Shown: positions 9,361 through 55,300 of the stretch, piece by piece
How positions within the stretch are numbered: the first letter of the stretch is position 1
Layout: each line of letters opens with the position of its first letter
The notes under the pieces: generated by a model
The model's database searches: none
Told to the model about the DNA's origin: nothing
Seen by the model: the letters and a program-made list of their open reading frames with translations, nothing else
Source: a virus
DNA: 64,000 nucleotides
Strand: one strand, 5' to 3'
IMG/VR virus record: IMGVR_UViG_3300027759_000077
Location: 1-64,000 of that record
Translations under genes and position numbers: made by a program

Positions 9361-10098
9361 TTAACTCAACGCTTCCTTTTTAGATTTAAGAAAGCTCATA
9401 GCGTAAGGTGAAGCACTTGCGTCTTCAACTGATTTGAATTCCGTTCCTAGCGCATAGTTTAAATCTTCTAATGAAGTCTTGGTTGCATCCATTAATTCCT
9501 GTGCCGAATAAGAATCTTTCATCGGAACAGAAACGATAGGAGTGGCTTCTTTTTGCATGAGCAAAGGAGGATTGCTGGGTGTTATGTCGATGGCAAAACT
9601 TGAGCCATCCTCACCAAAATCTTCGGGGACATACAGTCCCGTACAAATGTCAGGACAATGAAACTTGCCTGCATTACTTATACATCTAGCAAAAAGCATG
9701 TTGGTCGGGTAAGCGTTGTAAGTCGCATTCCTAGTAAGTCCCGCAGCCTTTGCTTGAACCATCGTAAAGGTTGTAGGTATCTGAGGCTTTCCATCTTTGG
9801 TAATTTGGATAGTACAAACAGTAGGACTTAACTCTAAGACTTCGTAATCATAGCGCTCAGATTTACGAATCAATGCGGCGATAAGATTAGCATTGGGTGC
9901 GGGTTTCCCCTGTATAATATTGATCTGATCACAAGCCGTAAACTCGTCGATCCCCAACGCACGACCCTTGATGATCTTAACGAAAGCTTGAGAAACACTA
10001 CGCAAGTCCTTAAAAAATCCACACTCAAACAGGTGGCGAGCTACACGCTCAATACCTTCGTACCCATCCGAAACCCTAGTAAGGTTATTTTCGGCCAT
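9361..10098 (-). CDS. RecT-like single-strand annealing protein (tentative)
   Basis: A 245-aa protein. Its central part resembles a phage protein family often labelled RecT-like: GIERVARHLFECGFF, a QAFVKIIKGRALGID block (about residues 37-51), an INIIQGKPAPNANLI segment (about 59-73) and NMLFARCISNAGKF (about 132-145). Proteins of this type anneal complementary strands and normally act with an exonuclease. A YqaJ/lambda-exonuclease-like gene is encoded divergently only 0.6 kb away (10743-11438), which supports the pairing. The gene overlaps the upstream 75-aa gene by 14 nt. The call is family recognition by eye; it could instead be another replication-associated DNA-binding protein. Confidence 0.5.
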   Translation of the reverse strand: MAENNLTRVSDGYEGIERVARHLFECGFFKDLRSVSQAFVKIIKGRALGIDEFTACDQINIIQGKPAPNANLIAALIRKSERYDYEVLELSPTVCTIQITKDGKPQIPTTFTMVQAKAAGLTRNATYNAYPTNMLFARCISNAGKFHCPDICTGLYVPEDFGEDGSSFAIDITPSNPPLLMQKEATPIVSVPMKDSYSAQELMDATKTSLEDLNYALGTEFKSVEDASASPYAMSFLKSKKEALS

Positions 10099-10312
10099 TT
10101 TTAGTCTCCTCTGAGTTAGCAGCCATCACGGAAAAGTAATCACTAACAATCTGATAACGAGTGGTTACCGATAGATTTTCAATCCACCAAGTGATGGCTT
10201 TAGAAAACAGATCATCAGTGAGTACCGGATATTTCTCACACACAGACGGATTAGAAAAACTTTTCTTGACACTAATTTTATCGTCGTGAGTGTGAAATAG
10301 ATCGTTAGACAT
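10085..10312 (-). CDS. Hypothetical 75-aa protein, first gene of the replication operon
   Basis: Unrecognised small protein, with mixed charge and a central aromatic-rich helix (ITWWIENLSVTTRYQI). It is the first gene downstream of the divergent control region at about 10.31-10.48 kb. Its end overlaps the RecT-like gene by 14 nt, implying coupled translation. No signal peptide, membrane span or metal motif is visible. Confidence 0.6.
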   Translation of the reverse strand: MSNDLFHTHDDKISVKKSFSNPSVCEKYPVLTDDLFSKAITWWIENLSVTTRYQIVSDYFSVMAANSEETKNGRK

Positions 10313-10338
10313 GCTAGGTACTCCGGTAGGGGTTTCAT

Positions 10339-10369
10339 ATCATAATCGCAAATTGTTAAGAAAAGTCAA
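10339..10369 (-). promoter_or_regulatory. Leftward promoter of the replication operon
   Basis: Minus strand: -35-like TTGACT (10369-10364), identical to the nrdJ promoter hexamer. It is followed by GATTAT (10347-10342, spacer 16) overlapping TATGAT (10344-10339, spacer 19) as -10 candidates. A GTAGGAAT motif lies 9 nt upstream of the -35 (10378-10385), echoing the operator arms at nrdJ. The next gene starts at 10312. Confidence 0.5.
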
Positions 10370-10411
10370 GGACAACGGTAGGAATAATTAGTCATGGGTA
10401 TTATTTTTATG

Positions 10412-10439
10412 TTGATAAATTAATACAAATGTTTACAAT
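10412..10439 (+). promoter_or_regulatory. Rightward early promoter
   Basis: TTGATA (10412-10417) and TACAAT (10434-10439) are separated by 16 nt, a good sigma-70-type match. Transcription would start near 10446, downstream of the first in-frame ATG (10429). This is why the later start (10483) is preferred for the ribbon-helix-helix gene. Together with the leftward promoter it makes a divergent switch region. Confidence 0.45.
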
Positions 10440-10482
10440 ACATAGAGTTACACCTTTTACAATTGTCGAGGTTGCTTTCAAA

Positions 10483-10827
10483 ATGTCTTCCGAATATGTA
10501 AAAAGATCAATAGTGTTGACGGAGACCGTCGCTGAAGAAGTGGAGAGAATAGCCACCCTGCAAGGGCGAAGTTTCGCCAGTCTTGTCAGAGATGCAATCA
10601 ATCTTTGGCTAGAACAAAAAGATTTACACGTTACAAAAACAACATCATCCGCATTCGAAATAGAACTTACAAACGAAGAGCAAGAAATAGTTAAAAAATT
10701 AAGTGCTCTATTAGGAGTGGATAATGCGGGGGTAATCAAACAATGCTGGAACGAAGGACTCACACCTACGATAGATTTAGCCATGAAGCGCAAAACCCAT
10801 TTAGAGGCAATGACCAAAAACCTTTGA
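10483..10827 (+). CDS. Ribbon-helix-helix (CopG/Arc-like) DNA-binding protein
   Basis: A 114-aa protein from the preferred start at 10483, which has GAGG about 11 nt upstream and lies after the predicted transcription start. An alternative in-frame ATG at 10429 would fall inside the -10 element. Residues about 6-46 fit the ribbon-helix-helix pattern: a short strand KRSIVLTE, helix VAEEVERIATLQG, a turn, then SFASLVRDAINLWLEQ. A second helical region (LTNEEQEIVKKLSALLG) may aid dimerisation. As the first rightward gene beside a divergent control region bearing AGTAGGAAT-type sites, it is a good candidate for the repressor that binds them. That link is inference. Confidence 0.7.
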   Translation: MSSEYVKRSIVLTETVAEEVERIATLQGRSFASLVRDAINLWLEQKDLHVTKTTSSAFEIELTNEEQEIVKKLSALLGVDNAGVIKQCWNEGLTPTIDLAMKRKTHLEAMTKNL

Positions 10828-11438
10828 GGGTTCACAACCTTGAGCAGGGCAGTCCGGAGTGGCTGAACTGGAGAATGACGGGGATAGGTTCGAGTGATGC
10901 GCCAACCATTATGAATGGCAGTCATTTCAACAGGAACCGGCATGATCTGTGGAACGAAAAATTGGGTAAGGTTTTGCCACGCACCTTTAACGCATTTCAA
11001 AGTTACAGGATGCGACGAGGACAAATACTGGAGCCCGATGCACGGTACTGGTATGCCCAATCGATGCAAGTAGAAGTAGAACCCATCTGTTGTACCCATT
11101 CGTGTTTTGATTGGATTAAAGGCAGCTTGGATGGCTGGGTAACGGGATCCAGAACAGTCTTGGAAATCAAAGCACCGAATGATAAAGATCACGATCTTGC
11201 TTTGGATCAACAAATACCGAAGAAATATATACCGCAAGTGTTGCACTTGCTTCTCGTAACAGGGGGCAGTCAACTTCATTATCTATCATACTCTCCTGGG
11301 CGACCTAAAGCGGAACGGTTTGCATTAGTAAGCTTCCTTCCAGAAGCAACTGCCTTACGAGAGTTGCTAAGGAAAGAAGAAACTTTCTGGAACTGCTTAC
11401 AATCCGAAACACCACCAGACGACCATCTCTTCCTATAA
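10743..11438 (+). CDS. YqaJ/lambda-exonuclease-like PD-(D/E)XK nuclease
   Basis: A nuclease of up to 231 aa. The conserved opening GSPEWLNWRMTGIGSSDAP (about residues 36-54) matches YqaJ-type viral recombinases. The active site appears as SLDGW (Asp, about residue 127) and LEIKAP (Glu-x-Lys, about 140-145), followed by the YIPQVLHLLL helix typical of the family. It should resect double-strand ends to expose single strands for a RecT-type annealer. Start choice is uncertain: ATG at 10743 overlaps the previous gene by 85 nt, while a TTG at 10824 overlaps that gene's stop codon and still keeps the whole domain. A long antisense frame across it is not credible. Confidence 0.82.
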   Translation: MLERRTHTYDRFSHEAQNPFRGNDQKPLRVHNLEQGSPEWLNWRMTGIGSSDAPTIMNGSHFNRNRHDLWNEKLGKVLPRTFNAFQSYRMRRGQILEPDARYWYAQSMQVEVEPICCTHSCFDWIKGSLDGWVTGSRTVLEIKAPNDKDHDLALDQQIPKKYIPQVLHLLLVTGGSQLHYLSYSPGRPKAERFALVSFLPEATALRELLRKEETFWNCLQSETPPDDHLFL

Positions 11439-19486: not shown

Positions 19487-19502
19487 CATGGAGGATGGTG
19501 CT

Positions 19503-19733
19503 ATGTTTTCATTCGTGTTAGCCACTGTAGTGGCAATTTCTTCGGTGTCGGTAGACGGTATCTTTGGCAAGAAGTCTTCTTGCGCCGGTGGTACTTGTTC
19601 TGCTCCTGTTGCTGTAGCTGCAAAGCCAGCGGTAGCGGAAAAGAAAGTCGAAGCCAAAGTTACAACATCTTGCTCGAAAAAAGCGAGAGGACATTTTAAA
19701 CTCTTTACTTCCCGCAAGGGCTGTAAGAGCTAG
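19503..19733 (+). CDS. Small secreted Cys-rich protein
   Basis: A 76-aa protein from the ATG at 19503, preceded by GGAGG; the in-frame ATG at 19488 precedes this ribosome-binding site. It begins with a signal peptide-like segment (MFSFVLATVVAISSVSV), then has a CAGGTCSAPVAVAAKPAVA segment, and ends in a basic Cys-containing tail. Short secreted proteins with CxGGxC-AP repeats are common in Planctomycetes. Their role is unknown. The gene has its own hairpins on both sides, so it may be expressed separately from the operon, perhaps as a lysogenic-conversion product. That role is inference. Confidence 0.65.
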   Translation: MFSFVLATVVAISSVSVDGIFGKKSSCAGGTCSAPVAVAAKPAVAEKKVEAKVTTSCSKKARGHFKLFTSRKGCKS

Positions 19734-19770
19734 AAAAGTAATGTTTTAATTTTGGGTTGATAGGGTTAGG

Positions 19771-19804
19771 GGGAGAGGGGTAAAACCTTCTCCCTCTTTT
19801 TTTT
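19771..19804 (+). terminator. Intrinsic terminator after the secreted protein gene
   Basis: GGGAGAGGG (19771-19779) pairs with CCTTCTCCC (19786-19794), allowing one wobble, around a 6-nt loop. A T-rich run of eight or more residues follows. This is the clearest rho-independent terminator in the early region. Confidence 0.75.
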
Positions 19805-19815
19805 AAAGGATACAT

Positions 19816-20472
19816 ATGATTGAAACACCAGCAAAAAATCATCGAACGCATGTCGAGTTTATAGAAGCAAAGTTTAGAGCTTGGGAAGATAGACAAGAAG
19901 AATTATTGGAAATGAAACTTTACGAATTTTGGGGAATTGCAGAAGAAGCTGTTCAGCAAGTAAAAGATGAATGGGAAAATGAAAAGCAGATCATAAAAAA
20001 AGAACAAGAAGAAACAGTAACGGAAACTTATCCTTATTATGTACTTGGAAGAAAACAAAATAGTCTAGATCATGAAATAGCAGAAACATTTTTTAAAGAG
20101 GTATGGAAACTTACACTTGGAACTACATCGTTCTGTGGAAAAGATAAAACTTTTGGGCCTAACGGTATCGAATGTCGAATAGTAAAAAGCCCTAATAATT
20201 TATTTACAGAAGGAAATATAAGTTATTACTATAAAAACGGAGGATGTGGTGGGGGATATTTTAATTTTTTTAATAATCACACCGCTTTTGAAACTTTAGA
20301 AGAAGCACAAGAAGATGTATTAACAGAATGTATCTCAATACACAAAAGGCAGTTTGATCAATTTCCAGAAGATACGAAACAAGACAAACTTATCAAACAT
20401 TTACAAAGCTTACTTAACACTATTAAAGGTGGAGTAGTTAAAGAAGCTTCGGGACAGCTTACATTCTTTTAA
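19816..20472 (+). CDS. Hypothetical 218-aa protein
   Basis: Unrecognised. The first about 80 residues are a charged helix rich in Glu/Lys (QVKDEWENEKQIIKKEQEE). The central part has aromatic and Gly residues (ISYYYKNGGCGGGYFNFF), and the end is helical. It has AAAGGA before the ATG and follows a strong terminator, so it probably begins a new transcript. No motif points to a function. The codon usage looks richer in A/T than the neighbouring replication genes. Confidence 0.6.
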   Translation: MIETPAKNHRTHVEFIEAKFRAWEDRQEELLEMKLYEFWGIAEEAVQQVKDEWENEKQIIKKEQEETVTETYPYYVLGRKQNSLDHEIAETFFKEVWKLTLGTTSFCGKDKTFGPNGIECRIVKSPNNLFTEGNISYYYKNGGCGGGYFNFFNNHTAFETLEEAQEDVLTECISIHKRQFDQFPEDTKQDKLIKHLQSLLNTIKGGVVKEASGQLTFF

Positions 20473-20481
20473 GGGATTAAA

Positions 20482-20694
20482 ATGAAAGAGACAAAAACTC
20501 GCTATATTGTTTGCTACATGCTCAGAAAGCCTGTCAATAAAAAGGACGTTTTTTCAGAGCCTACATTGTTCTCTGACTACGATTGTTTTGAAACACTCAA
20601 AGAAACAAAAGTGTTTTATAAAACCCTATTAGAGCGAAGGGAACTGTACAGTGCCAGCATTACAAAAATATTAGAGTCTACCGATTATTTTTAA
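20482..20694 (+). CDS. Hypothetical 70-aa protein
   Basis: Small basic/aromatic protein (TRYIVCYMLRKPVNKKDV; LKETKVFYKTLLERRELY), probably a compact alpha/beta fold. Ribosome-binding site AAGGGA. 9 nt after the previous gene. No family recognised. Confidence 0.5.
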   Translation: MKETKTRYIVCYMLRKPVNKKDVFSEPTLFSDYDCFETLKETKVFYKTLLERRELYSASITKILESTDYF

Positions 20695-20704
20695 GGAGTT
20701 TAAA

Positions 20705-20932
20705 ATGGATAACGATTTTAGAATTTATGTAGACCGTGGAGGTAAGATGCCACAGCTACGCTATAAGAAATGGAGGAGTGCTACACACCCCTATTACATT
20801 CGATACTCAGGGGATCATCCAGTAGCTCTCAAAGGCCCTGTTGAATTGTTAGCTGAAGACATAACAAAGACAAAAGTTTTTAGCTATGCTCAACACGAAT
20901 ACGTAAGCATGGCGAACATACCGCAAGAGTAA
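20705..20932 (+). CDS. Hypothetical 75-aa protein
   Basis: Last gene of the rightward early region, with AAGGAG upstream. Basic N-terminus (YVDRGGKMPQLRYKKWRS) then strands. Followed by the attachment region. No family recognised. Confidence 0.5.
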   Translation: MDNDFRIYVDRGGKMPQLRYKKWRSATHPYYIRYSGDHPVALKGPVELLAEDITKTKVFSYAQHEYVSMANIPQE

Positions 20933-20965
20933 GAAATGAACGCATGGAAGTTGAAAAACGATAAG

Positions 20966-20994
20966 ATTTTGGCCCACGCATTGGCCCACGCAAA
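20966..20994 (+). repeat. Left copy of a 29-bp direct repeat (tandem TTGGCCCACGCA units), integrase arm-site candidate
   Basis: Two exact tandem copies of TTGGCCCACGCA (20969-20980, 20981-20992) within a 29-bp block that recurs exactly at 21294-21322. The two blocks flank the tRNA-like core, the arrangement expected for arm-type integrase binding sites. Function is inferred from position. Confidence 0.65.
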
Positions 20995-21046
20995 AAACAA
21001 ATACACATTAAATCCCAGTAAAAACACAATAAATAAAAGAAACGGA

Positions 21047-21093
21047 ACGGATTTCTAATCCGTCGGTCACTGGTTCGAATCCAGTCAGGGGCA
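21047..21093 (+). other. Attachment site core: 3' part of tRNA-Arg(UCU), attP candidate
   Basis: This stretch folds as the 3' two-thirds of a tRNA (nucleotides 27-73). The anticodon arm is ACGGA-TTTCTAA-TCCGT with anticodon TCT, then a 5-nt variable loop, a T-arm ACTGG-TTCGAAT-CCAGT, the 3' acceptor strand CAGGGGC and discriminator A, with no CCA. The matching 5' half (D-arm, acceptor GCCCCTG) is absent upstream. A truncated tRNA 3' end beside an integrase gene is the classic attachment core that restores the host tRNA on integration. Phage genes lie on both sides, so this is attP rather than attL/attR. Confidence 0.75.
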
Positions 21094-21183
21094 TTTTCAT
21101 TTCCTCTTTAATCTAGTAATCATTCTTCCTACCAGACTTCAATTAATACACGGGATAATCAGTGATAATAGGCTTTTCATAGT

Positions 21184-21243
21184 AAGAACCATTCTTCTTT
21201 TAAACGTAAAAACTTAAAGGATAGGATGGTTCTTATTTTTTTT
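21184..21243 (+). terminator. Long hairpin with T-run before the integrase
   Basis: AAGAACCAT (21184-21192) pairs with ATGGTTCTT (21226-21234); an inner imperfect stem (CTTTTAA/TTAAAGG) extends it. A T8 run follows (21236-21243). It likely ends rightward early transcription before the integrase gene. It also contains the ATG at 21226, which rules that out as the integrase start. Confidence 0.55.
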
Positions 21244-21293
21244 GGCCCTTTTCAAAACCACCACAATCTTGCTGTTTGTGACTTTATGATTCA

Positions 21294-21322
21294 ATTTTGG
21301 CCCACGCATTGGCCCACGCAAA
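21294..21322 (+). repeat. Right copy of the 29-bp direct repeat
   Basis: Exact copy of the block at 20966-20994, again with two tandem TTGGCCCACGCA units (21297-21308, 21309-21320). It lies between the att core and the integrase start and ends 45 nt before the ATG. Integrase binding here could also control its own expression. Confidence 0.65.
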
Positions 21323-21366
21323 CTGATTCTCTATACTCCTATTGGTGGTTCAAAAAGGAGATTCAA

Positions 21367-22677
21367 ATGGCACACGTGGAAAGAATCAAAAGGGTCTACT
21401 ACCTCTTAGATGGAAAACGAGTAAGCTCGTCCACTAAAGGTGCTGTCAAAACCGTCGAGTTATCGAAGGATTTCTATGGGGTGTTTAGAGATCATGAGGG
21501 TAAAAGACACAGGCTAAGACTGCCTGGTATAACAACCAAAGCCAAGGCTGTTGAAGAGTTCAAGTCAGCAATCTCTAAAATTAAAAAAACAACCGAAGAA
21601 GATTTGGATAAAAACGAAGAAGATGTTGATAAATTAATAACCCTGTATGAAGAGTCTTTAACCAATGAGGGGCTTAAGAGTCAGACAGTGAGCGATGAGA
21701 CATCAAAGGTAAAGTTTATCATCTTGAAGTCTCTACAAGTTATTCGTTTGGAGGAGATAGATATTTCAATAATTCAAGAAAAATTAAAAAATAGTTCTTC
21801 CCACACCAACAGTAAGAAGCCCAAACCCTTATCCACCCGAACTAAGAACTTTTATATCGGAGCCCTTGTTCGGTTTGGGAAGTGGTTAAAGCGAAAAAAA
21901 TATTGGGATAAAAACATCTTCACCCGCCTAAAAAAGTTTAGAGGGGTAGAGGTTAAGATAAGAAGGTTTATGACCCAGCTTGAGTTGGAGGCTATCTTCA
22001 AAACAGCTAAGGCAAGAATGCCCTATAACGTCGGAAGGACAGCTAAGACTATATCCATCCAACTGTCTAGCGGTAAGTATGAGCTAACACGCAAAGTAAA
22101 AGGTAAGGTAATCTCTTGCGGTTTCTTTGATACTAAAAAGCAAGCGGAGAAAGCGTCACGCAGCATGACCTTAGCCAAAGGACAAGAAAGGGTTTTGTTT
22201 TATAAGTTCCTGTTCTATACATTGACTCGGGCCGGTAGTGCCAGAGAAGTTATTGTCGGGCAATTTAATTTCAAGAAAGAGCCTGCTGAAGTTGTCTTGC
22301 GAGGCGATCAAGTTAAAAATAAAACAACGGTAACCAAACCTCTGCACCCTGCACTGGCAACAGAGTTGAGGCTTTGGATTAAAGAGAATAATCTAACACC
22401 GGATGACAAAGTGTTTAACATACGAAAATCTATAGTTGGGGATTTTAATCGGGATTTAAAAGCGGCGGGTATTCAGAAAGTACTTCCTGACGGAACGAGT
22501 TTAGATATTCACTCATTTAAAACAACTGCTATTTCTATGTTAAGCGATGCGGGGGTTCCAATTAAATGGATACAGCATATGGCAGAACATCAGAAAGCGG
22601 AAACAACGTTAGGACATTATGCCAGAGTCAATCAAACTAATCTAAGTCAGATGTTTCATCATCTTCCAACTCTGTAG
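21367..22677 (+). CDS. int: Tyrosine recombinase/integrase
   Basis: A 436-aa site-specific recombinase. The start at 21367 follows AAAGGAG; upstream in-frame ATGs lie in the terminator and arm repeats. Residues about 50-160 contain a core-binding SAM-like helical domain (SLTNEGLKSQTVSDETSK; LGKWLKRKKYW-like helix). The catalytic domain has a TLTRAGSARE region for the first Arg, KNKTTVTKPLHP with the beta-hairpin Lys, HSFKTTAISML at the HxxR box (Lys instead of Arg), MAEHQKAETTLGHYARV with the second His and the nucleophilic Tyr. It should integrate the phage at a tRNA-Arg gene. The gene is preceded by the att core and paired repeats and converges with the late operon, overlapping its last gene by 41 nt. 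Confidence 0.9.
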   Translation: MAHVERIKRVYYLLDGKRVSSSTKGAVKTVELSKDFYGVFRDHEGKRHRLRLPGITTKAKAVEEFKSAISKIKKTTEEDLDKNEEDVDKLITLYEESLTNEGLKSQTVSDETSKVKFIILKSLQVIRLEEIDISIIQEKLKNSSSHTNSKKPKPLSTRTKNFYIGALVRFGKWLKRKKYWDKNIFTRLKKFRGVEVKIRRFMTQLELEAIFKTAKARMPYNVGRTAKTISIQLSSGKYELTRKVKGKVISCGFFDTKKQAEKASRSMTLAKGQERVLFYKFLFYTLTRAGSAREVIVGQFNFKKEPAEVVLRGDQVKNKTTVTKPLHPALATELRLWIKENNLTPDDKVFNIRKSIVGDFNRDLKAAGIQKVLPDGTSLDIHSFKTTAISMLSDAGVPIKWIQHMAEHQKAETTLGHYARVNQTNLSQMFHHLPTL

Positions 22678-34383: not shown

Positions 34384-37300
34384 TTAAGGTTCCAAAGCCG
34401 TTACTCTAGCCTCAAGGCTTGTTAATCGGGAAGTTAAAGTAGTGATTTTGGAATTAGCGGTAACTAAGTCTTGTTGCAGTACGGTTATATTTCCGTTTGC
34501 CGTATTTAAATCCGTCTGCAATGTAGTGATATTGTTGTTAGCAGTATTCAAATTCATTTGCAGGGAAGATATATTTCCGTTTGCATTACTTAAATCAGAT
34601 TGCAAAGTAGAAATACTGTTATTGGCAGAAGACAAACTCATTTGCAGGGAGGATATGCTATTACTAAATCCACTAACTTGAGAGTACATGGAATCTACAG
34701 TTCCATGTAATGAAGTAATATCGTTTTGTATGGTGCTAATCTGCATACTAAACATGCTGACTTGCGAATATAAAGAACTAAACGAATCTACCGTTGTACG
34801 TAAAGTATTAATATCATTTTGTATGGTATTAATTTGCATGCTAAACATACTGACTTGCGAGTACAAAGAATTAAACGAATCTACCGTTGTACGTAAAGTA
34901 TTAATGTCATTTTGTATGGTGCTAATTGTCATGCTAAACATGCTGACTTGCGAGTATAAAGAGTTTAGCGTGTTGTTTATTGTTGTTTCATTATTCTGAA
35001 GCGTGGAAATATTCGATTCAATCGTGTTAAATCTGGAGTTTAAAACAGTAGGATCAAGAGAAGATAAATTATTTTCAAGTGTTGTTACTCTAATTGTTAA
35101 TGCCGTTAACGCTGTTGTTGTTGTGGATATGTTGTTTTCGTCTGTATCAAGTCTAGTAGTTAAAGCCGTGACTTTATTTTCTGTTGTTGTAACTCTTGTT
35201 GTTATTGCATTTAACCCATTTGTAATCGTAGTTACGTTGCCTTCGTCCGTGTTAAGTCTAGTAGTTAAAGAGGTAACGTTAACTTCAACTGTTGCTACTC
35301 TTGTTGTTAATGCAGTTAACCCAGTTGTAACCGTGGTTATATTTCCTTCAGAAGAAGTGGCTCTATTTCCAAGAGCAGTTATACTAGTGTCATGGGATGA
35401 GTCTTTAGATGTTAAGTTTGAAATTGAGGTATTTGTTGCGGTAATAAATAGGGTTAGTGTATTAACGGTGGAAGTACTTGTACTTTCCAAAGCAGAAACT
35501 TTACTAGACAGCAAAGTAATACTTGTGTCTTGAGTTTGGTTTTGCGTTTGCAAAGTTGTGATGTTAGATTCAATAGATGTAAACCGGCCATTTAAAGAAG
35601 ATAAATCAATATTGGTAGTACTGTTTTCAAGAGCAGTTACCCTTACCGTTAACGCTGTTACATTACTCGATGTAGTAGTTATCGTTACTTCAGCAGTATT
35701 TACTCTTATCATTAACGCCGCTGCGTCGTTGATTGTTCCCGTTAATTTTCCATCTAAGTTAGTTACCTTTGTTGTTAATGCTGTTAAGTTAGTATTTGTA
35801 GTTCCAAGATTTGTAACCATTGTAGAAACGTTAGTTTCTAAAGTGGCTATTTTTCCATCTTCTTCTGCATTCTTAGCCGTTAATGTTACAATAGTTGCAT
35901 TTGTAGATGTGATAAAAGCGTTCAACGCTGTAGTTATTGTAACGTCGCCATTTGTTCTGTTTGTAATTTCTAAATTAAGATTTGTAGTTAAGGTAGTTGT
36001 AGCAGTTTGAAGGGTAGTTATGCTGTCCTCTACAACAGTAACTCTACTTGTTAATACAACTGCCTTACTATTTGTCGTATTTAAATCGCTTTGTAAAGTT
36101 GTTAGTTTAGATTCTGCTGAAGTTACACGGGAAGTTATCGAAGTTATATTTGCGGTTTGAGTTGAATCGGTTATTTGCAAAGCAAGAATTGCATTTTCAA
36201 TACCTACAAAACGGGCGTTTACTCCTGAGATATTATTGCTAATAAGAAAAGCTTCTATGGCCCCAATACGTGTTTCACAAACACCGGTTCTAGTTGCAAC
36301 CGCTGTAAGATTAAAGTTTGTAGATACTATATCACTTGCGATAGTAACAACTTTACTTTCAACAGTTCCTATTCTGCTTTCTACAGATCCTACCCTTGTA
36401 TCTAAATACGTGTATTGGCTGTCTACATAAGTAAGTAAAGCGTACTTTGAAAAATTTATTGAATCAAAAAATGCGGTGTAATCAGAGACTTGAATGGCAG
36501 TAACTTGACCATAGCTATTAGTGGTAATACTTAAAAACTTTTTCTCCCCACCGTAAGTTCCTGCACTTCCTAAAGAAGCTAAAGCAACGTTTAAACTTTT
36601 CCCAGACGTTGTCAAAGTAATACCAGGACCACCAGTGGCAGATTCAATTAAGCCGGGCTTATTATTTATATTCTCCCAATCAACTTCTGTATCAAGTTCA
36701 TTAACATCACTAATAATCCCATAGTTATCAACTGTTATTTCAAGTGTAGTGGTGGGACTACCGTAGGTTCCTGAAGCTTTAGAACTAGCAAGCGATATAT
36801 TACCTTGACTTATTTTTATAGGCTCGATTGCAGTAAGCCCCGCACCATCTAAACCTAATGTTATTCGTCCAAAAGCGTCCACCGTAAATTTAGCGTTGCC
36901 ATAAACACCAGGAGTTACCCCTGTTTTGCTTAAGCTTATAGAGCCAACAGTAGTAATTGGACCACCTATAATACCATCTTTTGTGGTAATAAGAGTAATG
37001 CCAACCATCGGTTCTACTTCTTCAAAAATGGGGCAGATGTTAGTTATAACATCAATAGTAGAAGAAGAGGATCCAGACCCTCCACCCCCACCGGTGTTAT
37101 TAAACATCATGTAGTTGCCATGCCCATAATACAATTTGACAACTGTACCCAAAGCAACCAGTTGATTGTTTACCTCGTATGCAGGAAGACGAGTTGGACT
37201 ACCAGCGTTTCCATAACCTTTCTCAAGTTTGTTAACATCACGGCAAGAGAGTAAGGTTTGATCGTAAGAGGAACTGTCGTTGATTATTTTTTTTGCGGAT

Positions 37301-39300: not shown

Positions 39301-40938
39301 TTAGAAAGTAACAGCCCATCCCTTAAGAGTGGCGATGGTTGAGTTTAAAAGTCTTGCAGTTATAGTGGTCGTACCCGATGCGGAAGCTGGGACACTCAGC
39401 GTAATATTGGTGTTAAGGGTAACAGCCGTGATGGTGGTTGGATAATTCACCGTACCGCTGCCATTGGTAGTCAATGCGATAGCAGCACCGCCCACGGTTA
39501 ACGCTAATTGGAAGGTGTTAGCTGTTGCTGAAATAACATAGTAAGTAGTGTTGATAATCACGCCAGTAGTTGTGACTATGGTTGCAAAAGAAACTGGTGT
39601 ACCGTCAGCGAGTCCGTGTGCTGTCCTAGTCACTGTGTCGCCAGTGTCTTGAAGCGTTACCGCTACTGCATCTGAAACACCAGTGGTTCCGGTGACATAC
39701 ATTCCCACCGTGTAACCTGTTGTAGAAGACATTGTCACGGTGGTTGAGCCAGATGTCCTTGTTCCCGTAATGCTACTTGAGGCGACTACTCCATAGTTTC
39801 CGGTAACAGTAATTGTCTGTGATGGCCCAGCACCTAGATTGGTGAAAATTTCTTCTAGTCGAGCTTTGGAAAGTTTGCATGATGCGTAGGAGATCGTCAT
39901 TTTTGTTCCGGTCATAGCGTTTTTAGAAAGCTGGTTGCAGGCGCTAAACATGGAAAGAAAGTTTCCAGTTGATACTACGGCTGCGTTTAGTGCTGGTACG
40001 GTCTGAAGCGAATAGCAATTATTGAACATACTTGACATACTCGTCACCGATGCAGTGTTAAACAGAGGTACGGTTTGCAGGGAGAAGCAATTAGTAAACA
40101 TTTGCGACATAGTTGTTACCAATACAATATTAAACAGAGGTACGGTCTGAAGCGAATAGCAATTACTGAACATTTGCCCCATAGTTGTTACCGATGCAGT
40201 GTTAAACAGAGGTACGGTCTGAAGCGAATAGCAATTACTGAACATTTGCAACATATTCATTACTGCTGCGGTGTTAAATAACGGTACGGTTTGCAGGGAG
40301 AGGCAACTGTAAAACATACTTGTCATGCTAGTTGCACTGTTCGTCCACAGTGTTGCCACCGACTGAAGGCTGTAACAGCTGTAGAATTTATAACTCCAAT
40401 CGCTAACGCTATTCTGGTAGACCGCCACTTGCTCCAGATCGGCCATCCTAATCGTGGGTAAATTCGAGCTAATGATCAGCGTAGTTAGCGATGCACCAGC
40501 AACAGCGATAGCTAAAAACCCAGAACTGTAAGCGGAAAGCCCAGTTTGCGTGTGTTTCCGAAACAGGTCTAGACTAGTAAAAGTTTGCCCTGCCTGCATG
40601 GTTACGCTGACGATTACTTGCTTGTATCCACGGCTGCAAAGGGTGGTGTTTCCGGTGTCATAAGTAGCGTAATTATACTCATGGTTTGCTTGCACACCGC
40701 TGGCAAAGTTTTCAGTAACACCGTCACCCCAGTCAACCGTGTAAGCACCCGCAGCAGACAAGGCTAGAAAATTAGAGTCTGGATAAACAGCATGAAGACC
40801 TACAAAACGATTATCGCTGTCGGTAAGCGTTGGCAACGCAACCCAATCGGCTGGTCGAACATAGGGTGTCGCTGCGGTAGTTGATGTTCTCAGTCCACGG
40901 GTGGCAATACTTCTTTTATTTAAACTGCTTACGGTCAT
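39301..40938 (-). CDS. BspA-type (DUF285-like) leucine-rich repeat surface protein
   Basis: A 545-aa protein. A beta-rich N-terminal region (about residues 40-160, including VDWGDGVTENF) leads to five clear 24-residue repeats with the consensus MFSNCYSLQTVPLFN, flanked by degenerate copies (about 190-330). This matches DUF285/BspA-like repeats of bacterial and eukaryotic surface proteins. The C-terminal 180 residues are Thr/Gly-rich fibre-like beta structure (TITVTGNYGVVASSSI). Repeats give near-identical 72-bp DNA units at about 40.0-40.3 kb. It probably mediates binding to a surface protein or polysaccharide. It overlaps the 109-aa gene before it by 4 nt. Confidence 0.75.
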   Translation of the reverse strand: MTVSSLNKRSIATRGLRTSTTAATPYVRPADWVALPTLTDSDNRFVGLHAVYPDSNFLALSAAGAYTVDWGDGVTENFASGVQANHEYNYATYDTGNTTLCSRGYKQVIVSVTMQAGQTFTSLDLFRKHTQTGLSAYSSGFLAIAVAGASLTTLIISSNLPTIRMADLEQVAVYQNSVSDWSYKFYSCYSLQSVATLWTNSATSMTSMFYSCLSLQTVPLFNTAAVMNMLQMFSNCYSLQTVPLFNTASVTTMGQMFSNCYSLQTVPLFNIVLVTTMSQMFTNCFSLQTVPLFNTASVTSMSSMFNNCYSLQTVPALNAAVVSTGNFLSMFSACNQLSKNAMTGTKMTISYASCKLSKARLEEIFTNLGAGPSQTITVTGNYGVVASSSITGTRTSGSTTVTMSSTTGYTVGMYVTGTTGVSDAVAVTLQDTGDTVTRTAHGLADGTPVSFATIVTTTGVIINTTYYVISATANTFQLALTVGGAAIALTTNGSGTVNYPTTITAVTLNTNITLSVPASASGTTTITARLLNSTIATLKGWAVTF

Positions 40939-46306: not shown

Positions 46307-49300
46307 TTATGCGCCTACACCTTCGGGTTTCTTTTCAGCAATAACTTTGTTAGTACCATTAAGTTTTTGTAGTTCTATTAACATTCTTGCAAGACTTTGT
46401 TCCTGTATCTTTTTGAGTTCTACAGTCATAGGGTCATCGCCTAACGCTGACACTTGAATTTTCTTGTATGCTTCTTCCACGGACGAAAACGAGGATTGGG
46501 ATTTCATAGATCCCATCGAAGCCGCTACACCTTGTTTAGCCGATGCTATGTCATCTGCCTTTTTCTTTTTTGCAGCTTCCGCTTCTTCTTCGGGAGTCTT
46601 TTTCTTTTGTCCGGGAAGTTCAAATTTCGGTAATTTGAAATCAAACTTAGGAAGCTTGAGGTCTTTAAAATCTGGCATGGGTGGAAGTTTAAATCCAAGA
46701 CCGGTATCTATACCCTTGGGGTTATCCCGAGCAGAAGCTTGTTCCGCAGTAACTCCGTTGTCTCGATCTGTAACAGCTTGATTTCTAACCTTGGCTTGAT
46801 TAGGATCTTGTTCAACAAGGAGTTGGTTTTCTAAAGCGTTTAACTTTCTGCCTTCTTCTTGAACCGTTCCTTCTCTCATAGACTTAGCGGCTTTTTTATC
46901 CATCTTCACGCCGTTTTTACCATACTCTAAATCGTTAGCGTCATTTTTAGATTTTAAAGCTACTTTACGTTGTTTCGCAGCTTCCGTTTCTAAAGCGTTA
47001 ACCCTACCTTCTTTAGTTTTACCGCCTGTATCTGCAATGCCTTCGGCATACTTTTTCTCAGTACTTGTTTCACGTGAATTTTTATCGCCTTGGCTTTTAG
47101 CTTCGGCAGCTTTTATTGCAGCCTTTTCCCATAATCCTATAGCAACAATACCAGCACCTAAGGCTAACGCAAACGCTGCAAGCATAGGATTAGCTGCAAT
47201 AACAGCAATAGCGGCCTTTGCCATATTCGCAACATAGGTCCATGTCGATGCAACAGCAGCAGCAAAGGAGGTAACTAACCCTGCACACCATGTATAAAGC
47301 AATGTAAACAATCCACTTAACGAGCCTACGGTTGTAAAGAACCCTGCAACCGCCCCAAAGAGAGCTACAACAGAACCCACTAAACCCGAGAAAAATCCAA
47401 TAACTGCCATAACCGTTCCACCAAACATAGCCCATATTCCGATGGCAGCACCAATAACTCCAACAAGACCAAATAAAACTTGTCCTAACATATTAAAAAA
47501 TGGAGCTAATGGTGAGAAAAGACCGAGAATATAACCACCAATCGAAGCACCAATGCCTACAAAAAACCCGACGAAAGACGTAACAGCACCTAGCAAAGTT
47601 CCAACGACAGAAACAATAATTCCAACTCCCGTAGCTAAAGCAGAAACTACAAAAGAAACACCACTCACTAACATGTTTAAAGCGGGTCCTAATAATCCAG
47701 CCTTATCTAAGATGGCTACAACTAAAACTCCAAACGCTACCAGTGGCATTGAAAGTAAAGAGAAGCCCGCTGCTAATCCTGTGATAATTGGAATTACAAT
47801 TCCAAGGACTGGGGCAAACATGGTAAGGCCAGCAACAAAAAGTCCAACCCCTACTAAAAATTCAAGAGTCCCTTGATCAATGCTGTCAATAAATTTGGTA
47901 ACTCCTGTTACTAAACCACCCATAACTCCTGTGCCGTTCTGAATGTCTTTTGCCCAACCTTGAATAATAGAAGAAGCTCTTAAGAACACGGGTATTAAAC
48001 CAATGCCAATGCTTCCGGTTAATAAAGCGATAGAGCCTTGTAGGGTTGAAAACGTATCGGGACTAGCACCTTTAACAAAATTGCCAAGGGAATACATGGC
48101 TCCTTGAACGGCTTTACCCAAAGCCATGAAGGATCCACCAATAACTCCAACCCTAGAATTTGCAATAAAATCTTTAACCCATGCTCCGAGGGGAGCTAAA
48201 GGATCCCCAGAAGAACTACCCATTGAGGTAGGTCTAGTTGCTGGAGGAGGAGTACCACCCCCAGAACCACCTTTGGAAGAACCGCCTTTAGACGAACCGC
48301 TTGAGCCACCTTTGGAAGAGCCACCTTTACTACCACCAGCGGTTGTGCCACTTGCAGCGTAAACAGGAGGTTTTTTAATCTTGCCGTCATTGATGTTATC
48401 TAAAAGGTCTTTGTTCTTTTCAGACTCAGAACGTTTAATAACACGTTCGCCCTTTTCTAACATGTAAGGTTGACCCTCAGGGGTCATTGCAGGGACAGTA
48501 TCAGAACCCCTAGGTTTGAAAATCAAGTCGCTTAAGGATTTACTATTGTCTTTTTTATTGCTTACATCGCCACCAAGAGCACGGTAACTGTTTTCAAATG
48601 TATCATCTGTATTCCAATTATTCTTAACCATCTCTTTGTTTGGTTTAGGCTTCCATTTTTTCTTAGGCTTAGCTTCACCAAAAATGTTATCGAATATATT
48701 GCCAAAGAACCCCTTCTTTTCAATATCGCCGCCACCAGAACGATATTTGTTTTCAAAGTTGGTGTCTGTGTCCCAATTGTTTTTGGTCGGATGGTAATTA
48801 GTAGGGGGCTTCCATTTCTTTTTTGGTTTTGCCTTCCCGAAAATGCTGTTAAAGATGCCACCAAAAATACTGGGCTTTTCAACGGAAGTTCCGTCTGAAG
48901 CGTACCCAATAGTACCGCCCATGCTCTTATAAATATCAAGACTATCTTTTGGTTTATCGAGGTCTTTGTCTAATTCTAAAGGTGGCGACGATGCAAGATC
49001 ATAATTATCATCTAAAACATCATATTGTTTAGAAAGCCTTTCTCTGATTTCATCTTTTCTGTCTTCCGCATCTTCTCCCTCAAGTCCATCCCTTATTCTT
49101 TCTCCTAGTAATTGGTTAATCAATTTATTTCTTAGCCATTCTTTCGTTCTATCACCAGTACTTAAACCTGACGACAACCCTGCCCTTTCCTCCTCCTCTT
49201 CTTTTTCCTTAGCTATATCTTCCCAAAACTTTTTTTGATTTGGTGTATAATTGGCTTCTACTTCTTTCTGCGCAGCAGCTTCATCTTCCACTCTTTTGTC

Positions 49301-52300
49301 ATCTTTATTTACATCGTAGTCGTCAAAATCTAACTCAAAAGGGTTTTCTTCAAAATCATTTGTATTTAGATCCCACTCCGAACCCATCTCTAAACCTTCT
49401 TGCGGACCCTGGTCATTTTCGTCTTCTAACGCTTCCGAAAAATCGGGGTCTGATAATTCGGGAGTTGCAATTTCTTCTGGTGCATTTACAACAGGAGGTT
49501 TAGAAACCGAAGTGGAACTCGGCTTAGACGTAGTGGGAGTTGCTGAAGATGTAGAAAAAACGGGCGAGTCAAGATCAGAAGAATCATCTGCATTTATAGT
49601 TTCGTAATTGTCACTGTCAAGTTCATAATCGTCATTAGCTATATTTTCTGCTGCAACTTCTTCTGGCTCTTCAATAGCATTTTGCTCAATGTACTCATCG
49701 GGTATTTCCTCAGCATCATCACCGATTTTTGTGGGATTTTTAGTTGGGGCACTTCCCCCTGCAAGTTCTGCTTCTACTTCCTCTAACTTAATAGCATGGT
49801 TTTCATCGTCCCACGCTTGACTTCTATTGACTTGAGCTTGTGCCTCATCGGCAGCATAATCAAAAGCCTCATCGTCACCTAAAATACCACTACCTTTAAC
49901 ACTCGAATCGTGTCCATAGCGAGGGGTTGGTTTTGATCCTCCTTTTGGAGCAGGGTTTGCAGTCGGACTTGCCGGTGCTCCTGTCGATGCGGGATTAACC
50001 GGTGCTGGCTTTTTCTTTGGCGGGGGAGTAGAACCTTTGTTTGGTACTCCTCTTTGTGGAACGGGTGTTTCTTCTTCGTCATCATCGCTGTCTACAGCAA
50101 CTGCAAATTTTTCTAATGCTTTAGCTGTAGCAACTAAAGCATCTCGTAAAAGCTGAGCTTTGATTTCTAGGTCTTGTAATTCTTTATTCCACAACTCTAG
50201 TTCTTCGGGGTCTAAAGAATCACCAAAGATACCTATGTGATTTGTAATCGAATCAATGGCAGTATTAACAGAATCATCAGCTTTGGTTAATGCTTTTCCA
50301 AAAAGGATAAGATCCTCTTCATCTTTTACATTAACATTTTTTGAAAACCCTTCTGCGTCTTTAGCATCGTCATGGGCTTTTTCAACCTTCTTGGTTGTTA
50401 CACCCTCAACATGTTTTTGGAAAAAGCCTTTTTCATCACCAGGTTCTTTAGCGTCTTCTTGAACAGGTTCTTTATAGGCTTGACCCGAAAGACGATTCCA
50501 TGTTTCGGCAATCGCTTCGCCAAGAGTAAGGGGGATTTGCTCTTTAAACTTATCTGTTGCAGGGGCTGTAGGATTCTTAATCTCAAACTTGTCTTTATCT
50601 TCGGCACTAGCTTCTTTAGTTTTAGCAGCGTCTTTAGTAGTAGCATCTTTAGTTACTTCTGGTTCTTTATCAGCGTCTGCTTTTGTAGCACTGGCACTAG
50701 CAGCAGCGGCGGCAGAAGCGGCTTTAGCTGCTCTACGAGTTTCATTTAACTGAGCTATTATAAGATTCCCATTAGCACGGGCAAGCTTTAAGAACAAAGG
50801 GTTAGCCGTTGCTTTTCCATTTTTTAATATTTCACTTGCGTATTTTTTAATCCCATCAAGCAATGCAACCAACTCGTCATCTGTAGAAGATTCCAATAGC
50901 TTTGAATCTATTCTTTTCGTTGCAAAATCGGGTTCTGCTGTATTTACCGGTGCGGTTACGGGAGTTGACCCCGCTGTGACTATTGGAGGTGTTCCTACTA
51001 CGGGTTCCGTCGTAGCTCCCGCTGTTGGAACAGGTCCCGCTGTAGACCCTGCTGCTGCTGGATTAACGGGCGATGACCCTGCTGTAGAAGCGGGGGTAGC
51101 TGGGGTAACGGGCTTACCAGTAGATGCTTCTATTGCAGCACTACAGCGTGGGCATTTTACCTTTTTCCCTGCTGCCGAAATAGGTAGTTTGTACGTCGCT
51201 CCACAAGCTCCACACGTAACCGAAATAGCTTGTGGGGAAGAACCGCTTCCTGTGCCAGACGCTGCGGGTGCTTCGGGTGGAACTATCGATGATGTGGAAG
51301 TTGGAAAACTAAAAGCTAAAGGAGAAACTGGTTTTGGCCCAGATGCAGCCGCTGGCTTAGCTGCGGGTGTTGTAGCTGCGGGTTTCTTTTTTGGTTTCGG
51401 TGTAGCTGTAGGGTTTACTACGGGGGTATTAATACTGTTGAGTGTTTTTTCTTTTCTTTGTATCAAACTGTTTAAATAAGTACTAGCCGTTTTAATACCA
51501 GGGCTAGTGTCACTACCGTCAATATTGGCTTGTAATTCTTTTTCTAAACCTAGCTTGCTAGTAGCCTCTTTGATCATGTCGTCTAAGGTAGTAAGAATCA
51601 ACCCAGACACTTGTGTCGTGTCTTCTTTATTTCCGACCTTAATTTTTTTAATACTTAATAATTCATTAAAATCTTTTCTTAACCGGTTAAGTTTTTTATT
51701 CGCAAGCTCAATTTTTTCTTTTATCTTGTCTTGTTTTTTCGTACCACCTACATCGTAGAATCCCGCTAATGCTGCTCCACTCGCACTAAGCGCAAAAATA
51801 GAAGCTATTAATTTGGCAAGAAACGGTATGGAAGAATTACCGCCTTCAGTAGGACCAGCCGAAGGTGGAACTACAGGAGGCACGGCTGATGGTGCTACTA
51901 CAGGTATATCTGGAACTACTGGTGGTACTATTGGAACTACGGGTGGAACTACAGGAACTATGGGCGGTACTTCAGCGGGTATTTCCGGTGGAACTATTGG
52001 GACAACAGGCGGGACTATTTGAATTGGGGGAGGGACTACTTCAGGGGTCGGGACTATACCGTTAGCTGCATTAAATTGTTCAATATGATGTTGACGAAAC
52101 TCTGGGCTTAACCGGGGGCTTCTCCAAGTTTCGGGGGCTATTGGCTCTGCGCCCTTTTGACCGTGTAGTCCTTTTTTATCTTTTGCTGCTTGATTTCTAG
52201 CAGCGGCAAAGGCAGCTTCATCTTGAGGCTCTACCATGTACGGCATGCCGTGACCTTCAGCAACCATCTGCTGACTTATCGACTGACCCGAATCAGCGTC

Positions 52301-55300
52301 AATTAAATCGCCAACTCTACGATTATGGGAAACCCCTTTAAGCTTTAACTTTAATTTTTTGTTGGTAAGTAATTTAGCAAGCGCCGCTTTTGCTGCTTTA
52401 GCTCCGGGCTGTTCTTGCCACTTGTCGCCCTTAGACTCAGGGGCATCGTAGCCGTACATACGAAGACTAAGTTGTTGGGTAGAACCGTCGGCAAATTTAA
52501 TCGTTAACTTTACGGTATCGCCGTCAGTAACACTGTCGACAAGGGCAAAAGGTAAGTCGGCAAGAGCTACGTTTTTATTTACATTTGGCGGGGGTGTAGT
52601 TGGGGTGTTACCAAAAACAACAGAACCAGATTGGTTTGCAGCCGCTCCACCACCCAAACCTCCTGCGGGAGCCTGTGTATCTGTCAGGGGCATTGAAGGT
52701 GCATTGAAGGCTGCAAGGGCGGCTGCTTGTTGCTGCTGGTTTCTTACTGCTTGGATTTGTGCAGAATGTTTTGCAGCCGCTGCTTTCTTGGCTGCTTCGA
52801 CTTGAGCGGGAGTTGAAATAGGCTTTGATTGTGGTTCTACTCTCGGAGGTAATCCAGCGACTTCTCTCTCTTCTTCCTGTTTCTCTATTACATCTCTAAC
52901 ACGGTCTTTTTCTACTTGAGCTTCTACCCTTGAGTCTTGAATGTGACTCTCAAGAGGTTTACTTTCAGCACCCCCAGCCATGCCTACCATTAAACTGCCT
53001 AACACGGCAGCAGAAATGACGGGGACTTTGAGGCTTTTAAATGCTCTGGTTATAAAAGCTTGAAGAGGCTTGGTAACATTAATAGTGGATAAAGCAAATT
53101 GAACGTTTTTATCTTTAGGGGCTTTAGCTTTAATAAGGTCCGGTATATTGGCTCCGGAAAACATCTTAATGACTGCCGCCATAATCAATTCTTGCGGGTC
53201 GGATAAATAACCCTTTTTAACTTTTTTACCATTAGAATCTGTAGTCGTATCCGAAAACGCATTATCATCAACGCCTTCACCAGACGTAACAATTGCTTGT
53301 AATAGTTCTTTTTGACCGCCTTCAAGACTCACAGGAGAGCCTGTTTTATTCAGTAGTCCGTGAAGTACTTCCTCTAACAGGGAAGCTCGGACTTGTGCTA
53401 GTTGTGCTTCATTGCCTTTTTCAAAAGCACTAGGAGGAACGGCAAGCTCTAAACCCTGCGAAAATTGATCGCTACCTTTTTCTTTTATACGGTGGACTGC
53501 ACCCGAATAAGAAGCACCTTTATTTTTTCCTGTCCCCTCTATTGACTCACCAGCATGAATAGAAATAACTTTAAAAAGTTTTGGAATACTAATTCCTAAT
53601 TGTTTTCCTAAGCTATCAATTAAACTTGAAACATTGTCTTCAAAATTCTCCTCCTGCCCCTCTTCAATAGCATCTTTATTACGTGCCTCTATACTGTTTG
53701 GATAATAATCTTTTACATCTTCGGGTTTAAATTTAGCAAACGATCCAACTAAAGGAGCTAAAATACTTTCTAACACACTCATAGCAGAAACAAAAATATC
53801 ATCTCCCGAAACACGTTCTTTAAAGTTTTGTGTTGATTGCGATTTAATACCACCAATATTTTCCCTAATACCCTTCATAAACTCAGCAAGAGCACCAACA
53901 TTAGAATCTATTTTTGCATTGTCTTCCGCTTTAGTTTTAGGCCCTCTAGTATCTAATGACTCGGGAAGAGCTTGCATCTGTTCTAAAATTTTAAGAAAGA
54001 CCAGCCCTTCTGCTGCTACGTCACCGCTAGCATCATGAGCTACGGACTCAACACCAAAATGTTCTGCAAGAACCTCAATAGTAAAGTCGGTCTTGCCTTC
54101 ATAGTCGTTTCGTTTATCTTTCGCCGCATTAGCTCTAGCAACATTGGCATCTTCTGGAAACTCAGCATCATCCAATCGTTTTGCGTGAACTTCGTTTAAA
54201 GCGTCTTGTATTTCGCTGTGAGGGTCTTTTCCCAGAAGGACATTAGCTTTCTTTTGAAAAGTAATTAACTGTTTTAATAAAGAAGCTAAATCTACTGTTT
54301 TAGTAACACTAGAATCATTTCGTTCTTGTTCGGTACTAGGAAGTATTCTCTTAAGCTGATTTTTTAAAGGATCAGTTTCATCTTCATGGCCTGCATTTTT
54401 ACCCAGTTTTTGATCAAATGAGCTTTTAGCCACCCCAACCATTCCACCCTCTTTACCTTCAAATTCATCAAGAAAACTACTTAAGATAGTAGCAGCTTCA
54501 TCTTTACTAACCTTAGGGGCAGCGTTATACGCATTACGAAGATTATCAAACTTATCATTTTCGGCAAGAGAGTGAGTATCTGGCTTATCCACAAAAATAT
54601 TTAGACTTTTAACAACGTTACCCGTAGCTTTATCAATGACACTAGCTGCAACTTGTATGATTTCAGCGGATCTAAAATACTCATCTGTGCCCACCTTAGT
54701 ACCACTTTTAGATGCAGTTTCGGTATCAACCACTATGATATATTTCTCAGAAATATCAGATTGTTTGACAGCCTCAGTAAATTCTTGCTTATCTTTCTTT
54801 GATCCCTTTTTTTTCTTACCTACCTTATTATCTTCTGGGGCTAAAGGATTTTTGGGGTCAGGATTGATAATGGCATCTACGTCTTTTTTACCGGATTTTC
54901 TTTTAGACTTTATTGAAGACCAAAGCCCATCCATTCGTTCTTCACCCAGCATCGTAACGGAATATTTCTTGTCATAAAAAGTTTGTAAGTCTTCAATAAA
55001 CTTTACGTAATAAGATTTTTCTTCTTCAATTCGATCTTTATCATCAGACTTTTTATAATTAGGATCCGCATCTTTAATTTTGTTTTCTTCTTTGGTTTTC
55101 TTTTTTTGCTCGATACGCTCCAGTTGCTCAGGGGTCTTAGCTTTGTTTCTAATACTTTCCATTGCAGTTAAGTGTGCGGATAAAACAGATTCTTTTAAAC
55201 CTAAGTAAGACATGTACTCTTGTAAAGGCTGCGAGTAAGAAGCAGATACACCAAGGGTATCTCCTAAAGCCTCTCGTTCTTTTTCTGCCATCCGTTCTCT

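Follow-up and report, generated by a model that had tools for sequence, protein, structure and literature searches.

The attachment region and its neighbours

The window, bases 1-64000 of a 70,945-base IMG/VR viral record, contains two identical 29-bp blocks (ATTTTGGCCCACGCATTGGCCCACGCAAA) with a start-to-start distance of 328 bp, which sit in the intergenic region that separates a series of small genes from an integrase gene (Table 1). Each block consists of two head-to-tail TTGGCCCACGCA units. Within the window, this unit is found with zero mismatches at these four places only, and its 9-bp centre, GCCCACGCA, is restricted to the same four places in the whole record. When the window was shuffled 30 times under a first-order Markov model, direct repeats within 1 kb did not exceed 15 bp, so that a 29-bp repeat is far beyond what chance would produce. 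The remaining window repeats of at least 20 bp are located at 34.7, 40 and 56 kb, within long genes. Direct repeats of 20-48 bp are present at 34748-34934 and 39995-40250, the latter in a gene that weakly matches tail fibres, and a single 3653-aa reading frame (46307-57268, minus strand) contains internal direct repeats near 55.9-56.8 kb.

Between the two blocks lies a 47-nt fragment (21047-21093) that corresponds to nucleotides 27-73 of tRNA-Arg(UCU), with the anticodon loop TTTCTAA at positions 21052-21058; ARAGORN detected no complete tRNA in the window. An earlier sequence-only reading had described the paired 29-bp blocks, the two tandem 12-bp units in each and the 47-nt tRNA fragment flanked by them, and these descriptions were confirmed in full, as the blocks are identical and the coordinates exact. 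Known phages matched solely through tRNA-Arg genes that they encode.

Several further elements accompany the blocks. The integrase gene starts 45 nt beyond the end of the right block, and the placement of the -35 hexamer of its putative promoter inside the last repeat unit suggests that int may be autoregulated, with the right arm controlling the promoter. In a second phage described below, L008, the sequence TCTCTATATT is present at a nearly equal distance from the last unit, and a promoter scan of the left block’s surroundings revealed no promoter-like site. In the right spacer, an imperfect hairpin and the T run after it, which were not called by a terminator scan that allowed short loops only, are a possible terminator for the tRNA gene that would be regenerated at attL. 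An excisionase was not found, and the two small reading frames upstream of the left block are candidate directionality factors.

Table 1. Coordinates of features in the attachment region, numbered from the first base of the window (L004 is the junction contig described in the text).
Feature	Coordinates	Strand	Evidence or remarks
70-aa ORF beside attP, candidate directionality factor	20482..20694	+	Kept in L004; no Pfam or PHROG match
75-aa ORF beside attP, candidate directionality factor	20705..20932	+	Kept in L004; no Pfam or PHROG match
Left (P) arm block, putative	20966..20994	+	Exact copy of 21294-21322; tandem 12-bp units 20969-20980 and 20981-20992
Core: tRNA-Arg(UCU) nt 26-73 plus TTTT, equal to host site	21046..21097	+	51-52 bp identity to empty sites L001, L002, L003 and L005
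Imperfect hairpin and T run, right spacer	21183..21243	+	Inverted repeat I2 21183-21195/21223-21235, then T run
Right (P') arm block, putative, integrase side	21294..21322	+	Units 21297-21308 and 21309-21320
Putative integrase promoter TTGGCC-17-TATACT	21309..21337	+	-35 within last arm unit; chance level (1 found, 1.2 expected)
Tyrosine integrase, 436 aa, RBS AAGGAG upstream	21367..22677	+	PF00589 E=1e-11; phrog_1 5e-28; AlphaFold/Foldseek; motif alignment

Empty and occupied host sites in planctomycete genomes

The last 45 nt of the tRNA fragment are matched exactly in five genome contigs, all from genomes of one planctomycete family. A complete tRNA-Arg(tct) gene containing these 45 nt without change is present in four of the planctomycete MAGs from which the contigs derive, a sixth genome (L122) carries the site with one mismatch, and in total 6 of the 95 genomes of the host family contain the site within three mismatches. 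The flanks of the empty sites agree where they can be read: a phosphopantetheinyl-transferase-like gene, so labeled from our own reading of its sequence, lies upstream, and a gene whose product starts MQKYLAGI lies downstream. Identity between phage and host extends over 51-52 bp (at most 21046-21097), forming a block that runs from tRNA nucleotide 26 through nucleotide 73 and restores the 3' end of the tRNA, as in the anticodon-loop class of attachment sites. The crossover would most likely occur inside the anticodon loop. Insertion at tRNA-Arg(UCU), which the sequence-only reading predicted, is thus supported both by intact MAG genes with an identical 3' end and by the junction of a sister phage considered next. 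The host gene that it proposed was largely borne out, as tRNA-Arg(UCU) genes with the same 3' end exist and phage DNA adjoins such a 3' fragment in one contig, but the 5' end of the host gene is GCCCTTG, producing a U-G pair, and differs by one base from the GCCCCTG start that had been expected.

The occupied site is found in L004, a planctomycete MAG contig. Bases 1-1543 of this contig are phage DNA that is 93.4% identical to window positions 19498-21048 and includes the 29-bp arm block; the 218-aa, 70-aa and 75-aa genes all have counterparts there. The phage part is followed by the tRNA 3' fragment of the core and then by ~24 kb of host DNA, the first 1.7-3 kb of which match the DNA downstream of the empty sites in L002, L003 and L005 at 88-91% identity. 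As judged from its sequence, the junction is the attR that would be expected after integration of a sister phage, and the window is the attP, the unintegrated form. In the L004 MAG, the tRNA 3' end is present once and an intact tRNA-Arg(UCU) gene is lacking, as if the regenerated copy lay on an unbinned attL contig. The junction is documented by one MAG contig, and searches for a partner attL contig, and for the integrase and capsid genes of the sister prophage within this MAG, found neither. The MAG is labeled Candidatus Kuenenia stuttgartiensis, a name that looks wrong because the genome belongs to the same family as the remaining planctomycete MAGs and shares DNA with them at 88-91% identity.

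A separate observation concerns the head genes. The major head protein gene of the phage is located at window positions 61844-63259, and about 31 of the 95 host-family genomes contain a related head gene cluster (portal, protease, major capsid and adaptor) with a capsid ~44% identical to that of the phage, nearly always once per genome and at even scores. The capsids of four such loci (L132-L135) are 70-85% identical among themselves, and a prepilin-like gene is located near one of them. The attB-carrying genomes yielded no strong match to this cluster, and a literature search found no report of it. The cluster may represent a planctomycete gene transfer agent or a capsid module that has been domesticated.

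The integrase and the conserved geometry of the putative arms

The gene next to the right block encodes a member of the tyrosine recombinase family, as defined by its PF00589 and phrog_1 matches. Motif alignment identifies Arg-I (R288), H382, K385 at the Arg-II position, H408 and Y418, and the enzyme is presumably active. No PDB chain matches the protein by sequence. When its AlphaFold model was compared with the PDB, the first-ranked Foldseek hit was 1z1b, full-length lambda Int with DNA; the two superimpose with a VIA Z of 17.6 over 314 residues at 16.6 Å rmsd, a value that reflects differently placed domains, and 1z19 aligns with a Z of 17.5 and 3.5 Å over 266 residues. Pfam, PHROGs and comparison of the predicted fold together place the protein among the lambda-type integrases. 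Its N-terminal domain (residues 1-81) is predicted to form a beta sheet and a helix, and the model of this domain alone returned no confident fold match and matched no solved arm-binding domain. A weak, sub-threshold PF14657 match is seen in the L008 integrase only. Within the catalytic domain, residues 225-268 (window ~22039-22170) form an insert that is modeled as three strands and a helix with an AP2-like outline; it has no Pfam match and is missing from the L008 integrase.

Comparison with L008, a 94.7-kb IMG/VR record whose capsid and integrase (9945-11126, minus strand) are 87% and 58% identical to those of the window phage, reveals which parts of the region are retained. Used alone as an IMG/VR query, the integrase found no relative, and a profile search with L008 added returned L008 only. 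Box II reads HSFK instead of HxLR in both enzymes, placing a lysine at Arg-II, whereas every other aligned planctomycete integrase that covers the motif has arginine there; lysine at this position is known in a small subset of the recombinase family (PMC4499138). The two phages share a 45-bp core (21049-21093), and to its left GCCCACGCA units are located at -77 and -65 in both. To the right, the window phage has two units at +251 and +263, whereas L008 has three at +261, +273 and +285, so that its right arm lies 10 bp farther out, or roughly one turn of the helix. Otherwise, the sequences separating the units from the core are unrelated in the two phages. Selection acting on a nucleoprotein complex would be expected to leave such a pattern, in which motif and offset are fixed and the spacer has diverged. 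Because L008 keeps the units at equal left offsets despite the unrelated intervening DNA, the comparison supports the assignment of the blocks as putative arm-type sites to which the integrase may bind, and the presence of such repeats on both sides of the core at conserved spacing is the arrangement typical of a heterobivalent, lambda-type integrase.

The sequence-only reading had called this a complete tyrosine-integrase attP with arm-type sites. The adjoining lambda-type integrase and the core-to-arm spacing kept in L008 sustain that description, but the word complete goes too far, as a scan for the IHF consensus yielded zero matches in the attP regions of both phages and no excisionase was found. 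The exact 24-mer of the arm units has no match in IMG/VR. A widespread arm motif was also considered and rejected: GCCCACGCANNNGCCCACGCA occurs in 80 IMG/VR stretches, but almost every one other than L008 is a GC-rich, low-complexity repeat of the GCAGCAGCCCAC type; judged from their sequence, these look like Ala-rich coding repeats and would be uninformative about attachment sites.

Tandem repeats also accompany other integrases of the host family. Three loci with an alignable N-terminal region (L010, L119 and L120) contain, in order, a complete tRNA-Cys(GCA), a spacer of ~140 nt, three 11-bp GGGGTAAAC(AA/TG) units and int, the units being located about 60-82 nt ahead of the start codon; this is the layout that would be expected of an integrated form. 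In L115, GTGACAAAC units lie beside int with a further copy ~280 bp upstream, and L105 and L118 have no such tandem repeats by int. Tandem copies of GCCCACG-type repeats are absent beside the other planctomycete integrases, some of which have different motifs. The tandem-repeat layout is therefore recurrent but not universal, and the motif differs from one integrase type to the next wherever the layout occurs.

Proposed mechanism, alternatives and known systems

We conclude, with a probability of roughly 0.92, that the region serves as attP for a temperate tailed phage whose hosts are freshwater planctomycetes and which uses a lambda-type (heterobivalent) integrase to target tRNA-Arg(UCU). The repeats, the core identity, the empty host sites, the apparent attR junction of the sister phage and the conserved geometry can be read directly from the sequences; from these we infer arm binding, the position of the crossover, integrase activity and control of the int promoter. 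By analogy with established knowledge of lambda-type recombination, the N-terminal domain of the integrase would hold the tandem 12-bp units, with GCCCACGCA as their essential part, while the central and catalytic domains would bind the tRNA-derived core, and bending of the DNA would carry the arms to the core. The phage attP and the tRNA-Arg(UCU) gene of the chromosome would then exchange strands across the anticodon loop, with the stem GGATT/AATCC providing inverted core sites. Integration would regenerate the tRNA gene at attL, with the right arm and then the integrase gene behind it, and at attR the left arm would be followed by the displaced tRNA 3' fragment. The gene would be restored at attL because phage and host are the same from the anticodon stem to past the 3' end of the tRNA.

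Other explanations bear on separate parts of this proposal. With core and integrase as described, the 29-bp blocks might serve mainly as operators, bound by a phage repressor or used in autoregulation of the integrase, rather than as arm sites, a reading to which the overlap of the right block with promoter-like sequence ahead of int and the position of the left block in a short intergenic gap lend some weight. We regard it as quite improbable, as the blocks occupy both sides of the core, the left distance is exact in L008 despite the unrelated DNA between and the right one is moved by 10 bp, no promoter-like site was seen near the left block, the 9-mer is absent elsewhere in the record, and other integrases of the host family have tandem repeats of different sequence at the same place. 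A non-functional integrase, in which Arg-II has become lysine, would make this a decayed, inactive attachment site. The residue concerned is indeed highly conserved, but the integrase frame is intact, the L008 enzyme, 58% identical, retains the lysine among motifs that are normal elsewhere, both repeats and core are perfect and an integrated sister phage is found, which together leave decay with very little probability.

The junction itself could be an assembly chimera, created in L004 through the 52-bp identity of attP and attB, in which case the tRNA similarity would still be real but would not demonstrate integration in this host. The shared stretch is close to a short assembler k-mer length, and the contig contains only 1.5 kb of phage DNA in a MAG that yielded no phage integrase or capsid gene. 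However, any intact copy of the tRNA gene is missing from that MAG, the phage part belongs to a distinct sister phage, and the contig extends 1.5 kb into the phage and ~24 kb on the host side, so that we consider this origin unlikely. Beyond the attP reading, it is conceivable, though doubtful, that the two enzymes represent a small lineage of planctomycete phage integrases in which lysine replaces Arg-II and one member has an extra beta-sheet domain within the catalytic domain, the arm motif, arm spacing and tRNA target being fixed, and in which the right arm forms part of the int promoter and the enzyme shuts off its own gene.

To our knowledge, few temperate phages of planctomycetes are known. 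The main value of the site is that it links an uncultivated phage (a 71-kb record) to its host with single-base precision, and it adds sequence evidence of lysogeny in freshwater planctomycetes. With two attP sites and the sites of other host-family integrases in hand, the arm-site specificity of this integrase group becomes testable.

The site is an ordinary attP of a known kind for which the sequence evidence that identifies the host is unusually good. As in lambda, arm-type repeats surround the core and int lies by one arm, and the predicted fold aligns with lambda Int 20-354. However, here the target is a tRNA gene, the arm units are tandem with a 12-bp period, the right arm is long (200 bp from core to repeats), the region has no IHF-type consensus match, and the enzyme has lysine at Arg-II and the small insert at ~225-268 that is absent in L008. 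Anticodon-loop crossovers (type A) are among the main classes in tRNA genes described by Islander (PMC4383910). Such elements likewise have a 3' tRNA fragment, a displaced fragment at the far end (seen here in L004) and a regenerated gene expected on the integrase side; there is no difference in kind, and the planctomycete group considered here contributes tRNA-Arg(UCU) as a further case. The attP sites of the Oenococcus prophage integrases IntF and IntB also have repeats in both arms around a tRNA-derived core, the 10-bp direct repeats ATTTGCACAA being putative arm sites that were assigned by sequence to the integrase N-terminus (PMC8074189). They differ in their host, in their target, which is the tRNA-Leu 3' end (13 bp) and not the anticodon loop, and in the repeat itself, which occurs twice in the left arm and four times in the right arm and is distinct from the window motif (PMC8074189).
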